Assembly: GCA_017432445.1 (NCBI GenBank)
Contig: JAFRJC010000137.1
Span: 186,001-250,000, forward strand
Direction: 5' to 3'
Source: Eggerthellaceae bacterium
GTDB taxonomy: Bacteria; Actinomycetota; Coriobacteriia; Coriobacteriales; Eggerthellaceae
Length of the DNA stretch: 64,000 bases
Shown here: positions 1,162 to 51,043 of the stretch, piece by piece
Layout: each line of letters starts with the position of its first letter
Numbering within the stretch: the first letter of the stretch is position 1
The notes under the pieces: model-generated
Databases searched by the model: none
The model's input: the letters and a program-made list of their open reading frames with translations, nothing else
What the model was told of the DNA's origin: nothing
Translations under genes and position numbers: made by a program

Positions 1162-3303
1162 GTGGTAGCAAAGAAGACAACCAGCACTGCGAAGACAACG
1201 AAAACGGCCCAGGCCGCCGAAACTCAGGCGTCCGAGACCGTGCTCGATGCAAAGACCGAAGCGAAAGCAGTAACCGAGGAGGCTCCTGTTTCGCCCGAGC
1301 CTGCTGCGAAGAAGACTGCCCCCAAGACTGCTGCAAAGAAGGTAGCCGAGCCCGAGGTGGCCCCCGAGCCTGCTGCCGAGGTTGCTGTGCCCGTCGAGAA
1401 GGCGGAGGAGAAAACGGAAGCTGAGAAGGTGGAGGAATCGCCCAAGGCCACCGCAAAGAAGGCTGCTCCCAAGACTGCCGCAAAGAAAACTGCGACTAAG
1501 GCCACCGCTAAGAAAGCAGCGTCCAAGACCAGGGCAAAGAAGACGCCGGAGCCCGAAGTGGCACCCGAGCCCGTTGTCGAGGACGTCGCACCCGTCGAGA
1601 AGGCAGAAGAGAAACTCGAAGCTGAGCAGGTACAGGCATCGCCCAAGCCCGCTGCCGAGGTCGTTGCGGCTGATGAAAAGGCGGAGGAGAAGGCGCCTGA
1701 AGAGGTCGAAGCATCTCCCGAGGCAGTTGTTGAGGATGCCGCTCCTGTAGAGGAGCCGAAAGACGAGCCAGCACCCGCATCGCCTGAACCCGAGCCCGCA
1801 TCATCTGAAGCTGCTGAGAAGGACGCCGCTCCCGGAGCGCAGGATGTTGCCGTCGCTCCCGAGTTCGCCGATGTGCCCGGCGTGCTCATTGCGGCTGCCG
1901 AATGCGCTCCGCTCGTGAAGATCGGCGGCTTGGCAGACGTCGTGGGCGCTCTGCCGAAGTATCTCAAGAAGCTTGGCGTGGATGCGCGCATCATCATGCC
2001 GTTCCACCGCCAGATCAAGGAGCGCTACGCCGCACAGGCCGAGCACATGTGCGATTTCCAGGCCAGCTTGGGTTGGCGTTCGCAGTATGTGGGCCTCGAG
2101 AGGCTCGAGCTCGATGGGACCATCTACTACTTCATCGACAACGAGTTCTATTTCGGCGGGCCGGTTTACTGCGGCGGCGAGTTCGAGGGCGAACAGTACG
2201 CGTTCTTCACCCGCGCGGTCATGGACAGCATCCCCCTGCTCGATTTTGACGTGCGCATCCTGCACTGCAACGATTGGCATACGGCCATGATGCCGCTTCT
2301 GGCCAAGACGCAGTACCAAGGCGGAATGCAAGCCGGCCTGCGGACGATCCAGACGATTCACAACCTGCATTTCCAGGGACAGTTCAGCCACGAGTTCGAT
2401 CGCGATCTGCTGCGCATCGACGATTCGCTGGCCACGCCGCAGTTCATCGAACATTACGGCTGCGACAACATGCTGAAGGCTGGCATTGTCTTCGCGGACA
2501 AGGTCAACACGGTCTCTCCCACCTATGCGCGTGAGATTTGCACTCCCGAACAGGGCGAGCGCTTGGACGGCGTGCTGCGCACGCGTGGCGGTGACCTTTG
2601 GGGCATCCTGAACGGCATCGACACCGATGTGTGGAACCCGTCCGCCGACCACAACCTGCCTATGAGCTATTCAGTGAAGAGCCTCTGGCGCAAGGCGCGC
2701 GTGCGCCAAGATTTGCTCGAGGAGCTCGGCTTGGCGCCGGCGGGCGACGAGACGCCGGTGATGTCCATGGTGGGCCGTCTGACTTCGCAGAAGGGCCTCG
2801 ACCTGGTGAGGTGGACGCTCGACGAGATCATGCGCGAAGACATTCGCGTGATCGTCTTGGGCACGGGCGATCCGGAGCTCGAGGCTTTCTTCCGTGACGC
2901 CGAGTATCGCTATAAGGGCAGGTTGTGCTCCTACATCGGCTACAACGGGGAGCTCTCGCACCGCATTTACGCGGGAAGCGACTTGTTCCTGATGCCGTCG
3001 CTGTTCGAGCCCTGCGGCATCTCCCAGATGATCGCCTTGCGCTACGGCACTCTTCCGATCGTTCGTGAGACCGGCGGCCTGAAGGATACGGTTATCCCGT
3101 ACAACCAGTACACGGGCGAGGGCAACGGTTTCTCGTTCGCCAACTACGACGCATACGAGATGCTGCAGTGCATACGCTATGCGATGGCCACCTGGCGCAA
3201 TCCCGATGCGCGCAAGCAGCTGATTTCCCAGGCTATGGCGACCGATTACGGTTTCGATCGCTGCGCCCGCTCCTATGCCGAGCTGTACCGCAGCGTACTG
3301 TAG
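1162..3303 (+). CDS. glgA: Glycogen synthase (GT5) with long Lys/Ala/Pro/Glu N-terminal extension
   Basis: This enzyme transfers glucose from ADP-glucose to the non-reducing end of growing alpha-1,4-glucan. The GT5 catalytic part starts near residue 241 (VLIAAAECAPLVKIGGL) and runs to residue 713, about the normal length of a whole bacterial GlgA. It holds the ADP-glucose-binding K-x-G-G motif (K253) and the C-terminal E-x7-E retaining-glycosyltransferase region (FEPCGISQMIALRYG). Residues 1-240 are low-complexity, rich in K, A, P, E and V, with repeated AAKK/APKTAAKK blocks resembling histone H1 or AlgP tails and a duplicated PVEKAEEK segment. The start is GTG at 1162 behind AGAAAGGA. The frame stays open with no stop across the extension. 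The enzyme call is firm; the tail's role is unknown. Confidence 0.95.
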   Translation: MVAKKTTSTAKTTKTAQAAETQASETVLDAKTEAKAVTEEAPVSPEPAAKKTAPKTAAKKVAEPEVAPEPAAEVAVPVEKAEEKTEAEKVEESPKATAKKAAPKTAAKKTATKATAKKAASKTRAKKTPEPEVAPEPVVEDVAPVEKAEEKLEAEQVQASPKPAAEVVAADEKAEEKAPEEVEASPEAVVEDAAPVEEPKDEPAPASPEPEPASSEAAEKDAAPGAQDVAVAPEFADVPGVLIAAAECAPLVKIGGLADVVGALPKYLKKLGVDARIIMPFHRQIKERYAAQAEHMCDFQASLGWRSQYVGLERLELDGTIYYFIDNEFYFGGPVYCGGEFEGEQYAFFTRAVMDSIPLLDFDVRILHCNDWHTAMMPLLAKTQYQGGMQAGLRTIQTIHNLHFQGQFSHEFDRDLLRIDDSLATPQFIEHYGCDNMLKAGIVFADKVNTVSPTYAREICTPEQGERLDGVLRTRGGDLWGILNGIDTDVWNPSADHNLPMSYSVKSLWRKARVRQDLLEELGLAPAGDETPVMSMVGRLTSQKGLDLVRWTLDEIMREDIRVIVLGTGDPELEAFFRDAEYRYKGRLCSYIGYNGELSHRIYAGSDLFLMPSLFEPCGISQMIALRYGTLPIVRETGGLKDTVIPYNQYTGEGNGFSFANYDAYEMLQCIRYAMATWRNPDARKQLISQAMATDYGFDRCARSYAELYRSVL

Positions 3304-3309
3304 CAAATA

Positions 3310-3342
3310 AGCCGCAGCGGTCGCTTGTCGCCCGCTGCGGCT
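3310..3342 (+). terminator. Hairpin after glgA
   Basis: An 11-bp perfect GC-rich stem (3310-3320 with 3332-3342) and an 11-nt loop are followed by CTCTATTATT. It lies 6 nt after the glgA stop and 33 nt before glgP, so it probably gives partial termination inside the glycogen cluster. Confidence 0.6.
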
Positions 3343-3374
3343 CTCTATTATTCGAAGAAAGATTTAGGTGAACT

Positions 3375-5834
3375 ATGGTTAGCAAGAAGCAGTCCGATAT
3401 CGAACAGGAACGGCGCGTCGCGAAGGCGCGGGAGCATATTGAAAAGCGCATTCGGCGAGAATTCGCCGTCACGCCGGATGAGGCCGTCATGTCGCAGGTG
3501 TTTCAGGCGGCCGCCCTGTGCGTTCGCGACGAGGTGATGGATGTCTGGGCTGACGAGCGGGCTCGTTCGTCGACGTCGGGCAACAAATGCCTCATTTACC
3601 TTTGTGCTGAGTACCTCATCGGCCGTGCGTTCTCGAACAACCTCGTGAATCTGGGGCTATACGAAGTCTATGCCGCTGCGCTTGCCGAGATGGGCTACGA
3701 CCTAGGCGCCGTGGAGGAGCAGGAAGCCGATGCGGGCTTGGGCAATGGCGGCTTGGGCCGTCTGGCCGCATGTTTCCTGGATAGCCTCTCCACCCTGGAG
3801 TTGCCGGCCATGGGATACGGCATCCGTTACGAGTACGGCTTCTTCCGTCAAGAGATTCAGGACGGCAAGCAGGTCGAGGTTCCCGACACGTGGTCGCTCG
3901 CCGGCGACGTATGGGAGGCCGAACGTGCTGACCGCGTGTTCGAGGTAAAGTACGGTGGCTACATTGATGAGCAGTGGAGCGAAGATGGCAAGCTGACCGT
4001 CAACTACGTTGGAGCGCAGTCGGTGATGGCCGAGGCGTACGATATGCCAATTGTGGGTTATGGGAGCAAGCTTCCCGCTACGTTGCGCCTTTGGCGCGCC
4101 CGCGCTCCCCAACGCTTTGACCTCGATCGCTTCAACCGAGGCGACTACGCCCAGGCTACAGCCGACCGCGAGTTGGCGGAGTCCATCAGCAAGGTGCTCT
4201 ACCCCGAAGACAGCCACGAACGCGGCCAGGAACTGCGGTTGCGCCAGTTCTACTTCCTGGTTTCGGCCACGATGCAGTCGATCGTCGATGCGCACAAGCG
4301 CCACTACGGCGACTTGCACACGTTGCCTGACAAGGTGGCGATTCAGATTAACGATACGCATCCGGCTCTGGCGATCCCCGAGCTCATTCGCATCCTCATC
4401 GACGAAGAGGGATTTGACTGGGAAGAAGCTGTCGACATCGTCCAGCGCACCTTCAACTACACCAACCACACCATCATGCCCGAGGCTCTGGAAAAATGGC
4501 CCGTTTCGCTCATGCAACGTCTGCTACCGCGCAGCTTCCGCATCATCGAGACCATCGACGCACGTTTCCGCGATCGCATCTGGCAGCAGTACCCGGGTGA
4601 TACCGATCGCGTCAACCGCATGGCCATCATCCATGGTGGACAGGTTCGCATGGCCAACCTCTGCGCGCTCGCGAGCAATCGCGTAAACGGCGTATCCCAA
4701 CTACACGGGCAGATTCTGCGCACGTCCCTGTTCCGCGACTTCTACACCGCCTATCCCGATCGCTTCCTCGGCATCACGAACGGCGTGACGCAGCGCCGTT
4801 GGCTGGGCGTGGCCAATCCGGGCTTGCGCAAGCTTGTGGATGATACGATCGGCGAAGGTTTCATGTCCGATTGGCGCAAGATTGCCGAGCTGGAGCCCTA
4901 TGCGCAAGATGCGGCATTCCGCAAGGCGTTCGGCGAGGTGAAGGCGCGCAACAAGGAGTCGTTCGCCGCTTGGATGAAGGCGAGCCGCGGTGTCGACCTT
5001 AATCCTAACACCATCATAGATGCGCAAGCCAAGCGCCTGCACGAGTACAAACGCCAGCTCATGAAGGCGTTGCACATCCTCTCCCTGTACGACCGCATCA
5101 TCGATGGCGAATTGGAGGACTTGCCGCCTATCACGTTCGTGTTCGCCGCAAAGGCAGCTCCGGGCTATCGGCGTGCGAAGGACATCATCCAGCTCATCAA
5201 CTCCATTTCGTCCCTCATCGCCTCTGACGAGCGCACACGAGACCGCATTCCGGTCGTGTTCCTGGAGAACTACGATGTCACGGCTGCTCAGCATCTGGTC
5301 GCTGCGGCCGACATCTCAGAGCAGATCTCGATGGCAGGTATGGAGGCTTCGGGTACGGGCTGCATGAAGTTCATGCTGATCGGCGCCCTGACGCTTGGCA
5401 CTATGGACGGTGCGAACGTCGAGATCGCCGAGCAGGTTGGTCCCGAGAACATCTTCATCTTCGGCGCCACGGTTGACGAGATTGCTCGCGTCAACGCCGA
5501 AAGAAGCTACAGTCCACGCGCTACGGTGGAGGCCAACCCGCGTCTCGCACGCGTGTTGCGTCATTTGGTTGATGGCAGCCTTCCCACATCGGACGGAAGG
5601 CGTTTCGAGGATCTGTACTATGCGCTGTCACCGGATGGCGGCATGGGCGACCAGTACTTCGTCTTGTATGATTTCGCATCTTACGACGAGCGCTTCTTCG
5701 ACGTTATCGATGCCTACAAGGATCGCGACCGCTGGCTTGCCAGCGCGATTGTGAATACCGCCAAGGCTGGTTTCTTCAGCTCGGATCGAGCTATAGAAGA
5801 TTACGACGCTCAGGTTTGGCACCTCAACCATTAG
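3375..5834 (+). CDS. glgP: Glycogen/starch phosphorylase
   Basis: The protein is a GT35 alpha-glucan phosphorylase that releases glucose-1-phosphate from the non-reducing ends of glycogen using phosphate and pyridoxal phosphate. At 819 residues it has normal family length. The early phosphorylase signature GNGGLGRLAACFLDSL, the ITNGVTQRRWL block and the AKRLHEYKRQLMKALHI segment are all present. The PLP-binding lysine is K665 in EASGTGCMKFMLIGALTLGT. Here C and I replace the N residues most often seen (TGNMKFMLNGA), a mild deviation close to the cofactor. The ATG start follows AGGTGA. It is the third gene of the glycogen cluster and gives the cell both storage and mobilisation at one locus. 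Confidence 0.96.
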   Translation: MVSKKQSDIEQERRVAKAREHIEKRIRREFAVTPDEAVMSQVFQAAALCVRDEVMDVWADERARSSTSGNKCLIYLCAEYLIGRAFSNNLVNLGLYEVYAAALAEMGYDLGAVEEQEADAGLGNGGLGRLAACFLDSLSTLELPAMGYGIRYEYGFFRQEIQDGKQVEVPDTWSLAGDVWEAERADRVFEVKYGGYIDEQWSEDGKLTVNYVGAQSVMAEAYDMPIVGYGSKLPATLRLWRARAPQRFDLDRFNRGDYAQATADRELAESISKVLYPEDSHERGQELRLRQFYFLVSATMQSIVDAHKRHYGDLHTLPDKVAIQINDTHPALAIPELIRILIDEEGFDWEEAVDIVQRTFNYTNHTIMPEALEKWPVSLMQRLLPRSFRIIETIDARFRDRIWQQYPGDTDRVNRMAIIHGGQVRMANLCALASNRVNGVSQLHGQILRTSLFRDFYTAYPDRFLGITNGVTQRRWLGVANPGLRKLVDDTIGEGFMSDWRKIAELEPYAQDAAFRKAFGEVKARNKESFAAWMKASRGVDLNPNTIIDAQAKRLHEYKRQLMKALHILSLYDRIIDGELEDLPPITFVFAAKAAPGYRRAKDIIQLINSISSLIASDERTRDRIPVVFLENYDVTAAQHLVAAADISEQISMAGMEASGTGCMKFMLIGALTLGTMDGANVEIAEQVGPENIFIFGATVDEIARVNAERSYSPRATVEANPRLARVLRHLVDGSLPTSDGRRFEDLYYALSPDGGMGDQYFVLYDFASYDERFFDVIDAYKDRDRWLASAIVNTAKAGFFSSDRAIEDYDAQVWHLNH

Positions 5835-49789: not shown

Positions 49790-50224
49790 ATGAAAGTTAG
49801 CATCGCCGCCGACCATGCGGGATTCGAGGAGAAGCAACTGCTCGTCGAATACCTGCGCGATCAGGGCCACGAGGTCCTGGATCGCGGGCCCGTCAATGAC
49901 GACAGGGTTGACTACCCCGATTTCGCAGCACTCGTGGCAACCGATGTGGCTTCGGGCGAAGCTGAGCGCGGCGTGCTCGTGTGCGGGACTGGCATCGGCA
50001 TGGCCATCGCGGCCAACAAGGTGGACGGCATCCGCGCCGCTAACGTCACCACGCCCGAATTCGCACAGCTGTCGCGTGAACACAATGACGCGAATGTCGT
50101 GACGGTCTCGGGCCGCTTCGTCACCGACGAAGTCAACCGCGCCATCGTCAAGGCTTTTCTGGAAACAGATTTCGGCGGAGGGCGCCATGCCGGTCGCGTC
50201 GAGAAGATCATGGCACTCGAATAA
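49790..50224 (+). CDS. rpiB: Ribose-5-phosphate isomerase B
   Basis: This 144-residue sugar-phosphate isomerase of the RpiB/LacAB family interconverts ribulose-5-phosphate and ribose-5-phosphate in the pentose phosphate pathway. The start IAADHAGFEEKQLLVEYL and the active-site cysteine loop GVLVCGTGIGMAIAANKV are typical; SREHNDANVVTVSGRF follows. The C-terminal arm HAGRVEKI is present. ATG 49790 follows AAAGGA at nine bases, and a -10-like TATACT lies at 49751. The 3' side opens into a 363-nt hairpin-rich gap before dCMP deaminase. Confidence 0.93.
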   Translation: MKVSIAADHAGFEEKQLLVEYLRDQGHEVLDRGPVNDDRVDYPDFAALVATDVASGEAERGVLVCGTGIGMAIAANKVDGIRAANVTTPEFAQLSREHNDANVVTVSGRFVTDEVNRAIVKAFLETDFGGGRHAGRVEKIMALE

Positions 50225-50233
50225 CAATGATGC

Positions 50234-50365
50234 TGCTTAGCCAGGCGAAAGGGTTCGCTCGACGCTTCGTCGCCTCGAACTAACTTTTCTGCCAAGACCA
50301 GGCGGAAAAGTGGATTTCTCGGCTCCTCGAGCTTACCTCGCTCCACCCCTTCGCCTGGCCAAGCA
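50234..50365. other. 132-nt multi-branched inverted-repeat element
   Basis: The closing arms 50234-50254 and 50345-50365 pair over 19 positions with two A-C mismatches (TGCTT, GCCAGGCGAA and GGGT blocks). Inside lie a small hairpin CGACG-CTT-CGTCG (50260-50272) and an 11-bp hairpin (50283-50293 with 50301-50311, one T-G pair). The whole folds as a branched structure right after the rpiB stop. The rest of the 363-nt gap 50225-50587 holds the duplicated dCMP-deaminase start and triple hairpin. Confidence 0.55.
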
Positions 50366-50399
50366 TGGGACAAACGAACGTGAAGTTCGCATGAGCAGC

Positions 50400-50438
50400 G
50401 AGAGGAGCTCCAATGCAAGACAACAGGCCATCTTGGGA
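50400..50438 (+). repeat. 39-bp direct repeat, upstream copy of the dCMP deaminase start
   Basis: This 39-bp segment is identical to 50575-50613, which holds the ribosome-binding site (AGGAG) and first nine codons of the dCMP deaminase gene. The copies are separated by a 136-bp insert (50439-50574). Confidence 0.95.
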
Positions 50439-50547
50439 TGGTCCGAGCGCCCGGAAAACGAGCCAGTGGCTCGTTTTCAGCGAGGACGGGCGAAATTTAA
50501 TTTCGCCCCCGTACATACTTTCAGAACTTTTCCCCGAATGCGCGTAG
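50413..50547 (+). pseudogene. Truncated duplicate of the dCMP deaminase start
   Basis: The upstream repeat copy keeps an intact AGGAG and ATG and begins MQDNRPSWD, identical to the real enzyme, but then reads out of homology into the hairpin insert and stops at TAG 50545-50547. This gives a 44-residue peptide ([18 protein letters not shown]...). It has lost all zinc-binding residues and cannot be a deaminase. It might be translated as an upstream leader peptide, or be only a by-product of the duplication. Confidence 0.7.
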
Positions 50548-50559
50548 CGCAGTCGGGGA
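50454..50559. repeat. Array of three consecutive hairpins inside the insert
   Basis: Three back-to-back stems occupy 106 bp. Hairpin 1 is 50454-50464 with 50468-50478 (11 bp, loop AGT). Hairpin 2 is 50488-50496 with 50500-50508 (9 bp, loop TTA). Hairpin 3 is 50531-50537 with 50553-50559, enclosing TGCGC-GTA-GCGCA. The first two are perfect with 3-nt loops. This arrangement is typical of palindromic mobile or REP-type units and not of an ordinary leader. Confidence 0.7.
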
Positions 50560-50587
50560 CGTCCGCCGCAGGTTGAGAGGAGCTCCA

Positions 50588-51043
50588 ATGCAAGACAACA
50601 GGCCATCTTGGGACGAATACTTCGCCACGTTGGCGAAGCAGGTTTCTACCCGGACTACGTGCACGCGTCGCGCCGTGGGCGCAGTTATCGTCAAAGAGAA
50701 CCGCATACTGGCCACGGGCTACAACGGCGTTCCTCGCGGTATGAAGCATTGCTCTGAAGTGGGCTGCCTGCGCGAGAAGATGGGCGTGCCGTCTGGTCAG
50801 CGCCAGGAAATTTGTCGTGGACTGCATGCCGAGCAGAACGCCATCATCCAGGCGGCACGGTACGGCACCGATATCCGCGGCTCGAAGATCTACATCACAA
50901 CGCAGCCTTGCATCACCTGCGCAAAGATGTGTATCAACGCCGGAATCGAAGAGATAATCTATGCCAATCCATATCCCGACGAGTTGTCGTTGGGCATGCT
51001 CGATGAAGCGGGTATACCCTATCGAGTAATCGAATGCGGCTAA
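50588..51043 (+). CDS. dCMP deaminase (ComEB-like)
   Basis: This zinc enzyme of 151 residues deaminates dCMP to dUMP, feeding thymidylate synthesis. The zinc site is H-A-E (GLHAEQNAI, with the catalytic Glu) and P-C-x2-C ([16 protein letters not shown]). An extra metal or structural region [14 protein letters not shown] is as in the ComEB/DCTD group. ATG 50588 follows AGGAGCTCC. Its ribosome-binding site and first nine codons exist a second time 175 bp upstream, around a hairpin-rich insert. A -10-like TACAAT for the following atp genes lies about 150 bases beyond its stop. Confidence 0.93.

Follow-up and report, generated by a model that had tools for sequence, protein, structure and literature searches.

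A hairpin element at a duplicated dcd start and the recurrence of its layout at other gene ends

The start of dcd in this Eggerthellaceae genome occurs twice, on either side of a short hairpin-rich insert, which raises the question of what the insert is and how the gene was left intact around it.

The duplicated dcd start and its insert

The gene lies at 50588..51043 on the forward strand of the window (the whole stretch of 64,000 nucleotides that was analysed; the duplicated start and the parts of its insert are also given on this strand). Its product is a dCMP deaminase, matching PF00383 (dCMP/cytidine deaminase) in Pfam with E 1.3e-25, and the gene upstream encodes RpiB (PF02502). By sequence comparison, positions 50400-50438 and 50575-50613 are identical at 39/39 positions, with 175 bp from start to start and 136 bp between, as the earlier note had described. 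The identity is limited to these 39 bp, the left neighbours being GCAGC and AGGTT, and the right neighbours TGGTCC and CGAATA, for the first and second copy, respectively. Each copy consists of GAGAGGAGCTCCA followed by 26 nt of the gene from the ATG, i.e. eight full codons plus 2 nt; the nine codons counted previously hold for the residues (MQDNRPSWD), which are common to both copies because GAT and GAC both encode Asp. A chance origin of such an exact repeat is far beyond expectation, and the repeat listing showed no further family of direct repeats there. The second copy, the restored start, runs into the intact gene. The first copy, a displaced start with the ribosome-binding site, the ATG and the eight codons plus 2 nt, runs into the 44-codon frame noted earlier (50413..50547), which passes through the hairpins, ends in hairpin 3 and has no Pfam match.

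The insert (50439..50574) has no protein-coding content and is divided into a conserved core, its first ~122 nt (about 50439-50560; the match to model R1 covers 50439-50560 with 138 bits), and a tail (50561-50574). A covarying foot stem, P1, pairs GTCC (50441..50444) with GGAC (50484..50487). Hairpin 1 (50454..50478), which folding and pattern searches identify as the most widely conserved module, has an 11-bp perfect stem and the loop AGT. It is followed by hairpin 2 (50488..50508), with a 9-bp perfect stem and the loop TTA, and by hairpin 3 (50531..50559), with a stem of 7+5 bp around a 1x1 mismatch and the loop GTA. Folding thus confirms the three consecutive hairpins, two of them with perfect stems and 3-nt loops, that had been read from the sequence. 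The insert folds with z = -4.25, and none of 200 shuffled sequences folds as well. No Rfam match was found in 50000-51000 up to E = 1.

The gap between rpiB and dcd also holds a second, different palindromic element (50234-50365), with 21-nt arms that are 90% complementary and separated by 90 nt; one more copy occurs at G000:C129:6985-7086. The corresponding gap in the sister species G001 (L151) and G006 (L157) contains other, unrelated palindromes.

A dispersed family with a conserved structure

The insert proves to be one copy of a dispersed element. A 214-bp query gives 19 matches in its own genome, corresponding to about a dozen separate copies with 77-84% identity, three of them in tandem on contig 23; tandem units are common among the copies in general. 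Nine of the 15 genus genomes contain matches, one of them as many as 34, and a covariance model derived from 22 copies detects the element in 20/138 genomes of the family. In the class, a hairpin pattern allowing one mismatch matches 12/396 genomes, with zero matches for the reversed-pattern control. The exact hairpin-1 pattern is found in rumen assemblies of Eggerthellaceae and Clostridia and in 12 IMG/VR stretches (viral contigs), where hairpin 1 stands without abutting repeats. Two of the viral contigs (L330, L335) contain three hairpin-1 copies each, within larger palindromes and in open reading frames. Plasmid and phage collections gave no match at the sensitivity used. The distribution is patchy and crosses phyla, as mobile DNA would give; nearly all of the genomes compared are metagenome assemblies. 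We found no earlier description of this hairpin family in the literature, in a search of open-licence papers.

The dcd site in the relatives, judged from the orthologues of other genus genomes, is empty. The deaminase query has matches in 14/15 genus genomes, that in G004 being weak and paralogue-like. Among the 12 other genus genomes with a dcd orthologue, those whose assembly includes the start show one start with no core nearby, and rpiB lies directly upstream of dcd in most of these genomes. Genome G009 is neutral, because the dcd start is absent from its main contig. The flanks of a tRNA-Arg copy provide no empty site, since all three sister species (3/3) carry the element there. The insertion of a palindromic element proposed in the earlier note is therefore supported, both by the multi-copy family and by the single, insert-free dcd start of the relatives; the pattern that the note had named as evidence against it, an identical arrangement in all relatives and no other copies, was not observed.

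The structure is conserved together with the family. Across 22 copies, 98.2% of the cells in the stem alignment pair, and 71 cells are changed on both sides, compared to a mean of 22.5 in shuffled alignments (0/500 reach 71) and to about a dozen one-sided changes. The P1 foot stem shows 4/4 pairing at 66/118 distinct sites with 14 sequence types, compared to a mean of 10.2 and a maximum of 22 in 1000 shuffles. The small number of G-T intermediates in the covarying stems hints that the structure may be maintained at the DNA level. The possibility that one P1 strand is taken from the target sequence was rejected, as there is no excess of such cases (8 observed, 7.1 expected). Hairpin 3 is an optional module, missing from some copies. 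In many cases the copy occupies the loop of a larger palindrome, whose arms differ from copy to copy; in L059, L041 and L039 these palindromes are long, with perfect arms of 36, 27 and 27 nt, respectively.

The layout at other gene ends and its neighbourhood

Among the first 35 copies inspected, only the copy at dcd has a long direct repeat abutting both sides. In a wider set to which other genera were added, with an abutting repeat counted at a score of 20 or more and ending next to the hairpin, 19/108 distinct sites have such a repeat at hairpin 1, compared to 2/216 mismatched flank pairs; the 19 include a few tandem copies or nested palindromes, which are not gene ends. The repeats mostly end exactly 4 nt before the GAGCG motif of hairpin 1, i.e. 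at the P1 foot. A second control, in which the boundary was shifted by 40 nt, gives 12/105, and is weak on position because long repeats reach that far. The repeats range from ~13 to 95 bp or more, the perfect ones having 29, 39, 50, 61, 63 and 85 bp. An abutting direct repeat is missing from about 80% of the copies, many of which are instead enclosed by the arms of a larger palindrome.

The sites that can be assigned are mostly gene ends. They include the start of hisF in G050 (genus g10; repeat 63/63) and in G127 (genus g45; copies differing synonymously), the 3′ end of pyrG (85/85), the 3′ end of one protein gene that is hit in both G127 and G128 (two species), and the 3′ ends of tRNA-Gly, three tRNA-Arg and tRNA-Leu, all broken in the T-loop at TTCGAAC(C/T) or TCGAACC. 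The 5′ end of a tRNA-Ala is broken in the D-loop, and a terminator hairpin and a tRNA acceptor end also carry an abutting repeat. hisF was identified by translation, and pyrG and tRNA-Ala by reading the sequence, without a profile search. The common layout is a displaced gene fragment, followed by the hairpins from P1/hairpin 1 onwards and by a restored, complete gene end.

Some of these sites tell more about the joining. hisF is broken at the same nucleotide in the two genera. In G127, the displaced and restored hisF starts differ at five codons, all synonymously, and three copies of the hisF start occur together with two hairpin units in tandem (L216, G127:C4:33900-35300), the outermost copy being the one that differs at the five synonymous positions. 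In G128, the displaced and restored copies of a second gene differ at two sites, both synonymous. In G050, the hisF leader known from the sister species separates the hairpins from the restored start, rather than lying to the left of the displaced one. At the tRNA-Gly array and at one tRNA-Arg array, the outermost unit lacks a displaced fragment. Two loci of G127 (L215, L218) consist of tandem arrays of the hairpin unit and a tRNA 3′ end, with N assembly gaps nearby.

The surroundings of the copies were searched for partner enzymes. No integrase or recurring protein was found near the copies, the recurring open reading frames within 3 kb being essentially frames made by the repeat itself, and a search of six genomes found no tyrosine recombinase (PF00589) adjacent to a core. 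A RAYT/Y1 transposase was rejected as the mover, with no Y1 match in the own genome and 12 Y1 loci of the genus that lack a core. The RAYT-like Y1 genes of the genus (L176, L184, L175, L185) are flanked by palindromes of their own, a different one in each genome. Two three-recombinase (RIT-like) clusters were inspected and have no core at their ends, and there is no reverse transcriptase (RVT_1) match in the copy-rich genomes G001, G003, G127 and G154, some of which are incomplete. IS110 elements were also set aside: they are found with or without the hairpin element, and some element-bearing genomes have only sub-cut-off matches. In G004 (L126, G004:C72:8500-14774), the core at 2817-4569 is interrupted inside hairpin 2 by an element with an IS110-family transposase, so that the hairpin is there a target and not a product.

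Candidate mechanisms and comparison with known systems

We tentatively favour, as a reading that falls a little short of an even likelihood, that the insert represents a mobile, non-autonomous hairpin element of 136 bp, which inserts beside or inside gene ends, leaves an islet-like layout and is served by an enzyme in trans. What is observed directly is the membership of a family, the structure, the orthologous sites without an insert and the repeated appearance of the layout at independent gene ends. A trans-acting enzyme would recognize the conserved hairpin 1 and would join the P1 side of this hairpin to a point within the gene end; the gene would be split, then restored from carried sequence, as tyrosine-integrase islands do. 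At dcd, such joining would yield the 39-bp repeat and keep the gene whole. The strongest sign comes from hisF of G127, whose synonymous-only differences suggest that restored gene ends may be imported, because a decaying dead fragment should not vary only at synonymous sites. In this stretch the two 39-bp copies are identical, and carried and duplicated ends are therefore not separable. Against island-like joining stand the lack of any protein accompanying the element, the occurrence of one core at many targets, and the large share of copies that have no abutting direct repeat. A more far-reaching form of the same idea, in which a DNA islet without proteins, defined by its structure, passes from species to species, its hairpin foot joined inside gene ends and a replacement end carried or created, would amount to a new hairpin-recognizing integration system; we regard this form as unlikely.

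The same mobile element could also have entered through staggered cuts whose gaps were then filled, so that a long target-site duplication arose whose length varies from site to site; insertions into essential genes would survive only where the duplication passes the gene end. This is possible, if rather unlikely. The perfect abutting repeats of the six lengths given above are what it would produce, it explains the constant intactness of the genes without a carried gene end, and it accounts for the identical copies at dcd, fitting this stretch equally well. The long target duplication of the earlier note is thus consistent with the layout, but stays unproven in view of repeats of ~13 to 95 bp or more, found mostly at gene ends, and of two cases with synonymous differences, all of which would also suit a unit that integrates with a replacement gene end of its own. 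Synonymous-only differences in both hisF and the second gene are unexpected from the decay of a dead fragment, a site preference would be required for two genera to share the exact break point and for T-loops to be broken repeatedly, and the position of the sister-species leader at hisF in g10 also speaks against a simple duplication.

Replication slippage or template switching at an intergenic hairpin element, by which part of the gene end was copied again from one breakpoint at hairpin 1 and another within the gene, seems to us distinctly unlikely. Such copying explains the tandem arrays with constant units, including the tRNA-Gly array and the one tRNA-Arg array whose outermost unit lacks a displaced fragment, and the scarcity of G-T intermediates (71 both-sided changes, about a dozen one-sided) hints at a correction of hairpins at the DNA level. 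Nevertheless, it leaves unexplained the dispersal, the equal junctions at unrelated genes and the synonymous divergence, and no second hairpin set is left of the displaced dcd copy.

It is very improbable that the arrangement is kept as a regulatory leader, in which the 44-codon frame and the hairpins control dcd translation. The frame is open and has the gene's own ribosome-binding site; moreover, the Shine-Dalgarno sequence GGAGCUCC is self-complementary, and folding predicts that its two copies pair together, with an unpaired probability of GGAG of ~0.01 in both copies versus 0.53 in a single-copy leader. This pairing may reduce dcd translation if both copies are on one transcript. However, the arrangement is species-specific, and the layout also occurs at the 3′ ends of tRNA and protein genes, where control of translation would make no sense. 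Finally, a common assembler uses 39 as a default k-mer length and the genome is an assembly of 188 contigs (96% complete), but an assembly artefact is hardly credible, with equivalent layouts of many other repeat lengths in other genomes and real element ends in both junctions.

Small hairpin repeats are commonly regarded as intergenic debris. The family described here appears to take conserved and essential gene ends repeatedly while leaving the genes intact, it crosses phyla among bacteria of the gut and rumen, and it appears to have imported a foreign gene end in two cases. Which enzyme moves the element, and whether a folded strand is recognized, become testable questions. If the more far-reaching form, that of an islet moving between species, is true, essential genes and tRNAs would be usable as harmless landing sites for an islet.

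Several known systems share some of these features. MITEs and small repeats of enterobacteria such as ERIC/RU-1 (PMC2229807, PMC2759123, PMC10969869) are likewise short, non-coding, dispersed, non-autonomous and hairpin-forming. By inspection, however, the two ends of the insert, TGGTCCGAGC... and ...GCCGCAGGTT, do not form terminal inverted repeats, and the repeat listing gives none there; the duplications have 39 bp at dcd and 13-95 bp or more elsewhere rather than a few bp, and no parent transposase with the same ends was found within 3 kb of the copies. REP/REPIN sequences with their RAYT Y1 transposases (PMC3733652 for REPs) resemble the family in their intergenic spread and in a conserved hairpin with unpaired internal bases, whereas the own genome has no Y1 match and the RAYT genes of the genus adjoin other hairpins. 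Mobile hairpins of mitochondria, namely the sponge RHE (PMC2800124) and the double-hairpin elements (e.g. PMC5910586), are GC-rich and spread without coding capacity, but are organelle elements.

Tyrosine-integrase islands in tRNA and protein genes produce a layout of displaced gene fragment, element and restored gene (Islander, PMC4383910), and crossovers in the T-loop are precedented by the attB of Ms6 in the T-loop of tRNA-Ala (PMC1762012). Such islands and phages share with the hairpin family a target gene that is split and then restored from the element, a displaced fragment marking the other end, the T-loop crossover and the tandem arrays. The displaced fragment and the restored gene end are both present at dcd and at the other gene ends, and the internal integrase gene of an island is absent from the 136-bp insert. 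Instead of an island with its genes, we find ~80-140 bp of hairpins without a gene, with the displaced fragment abutting the hairpin foot, and whereas an island integrase uses one site, here one core is joined to many unrelated targets.
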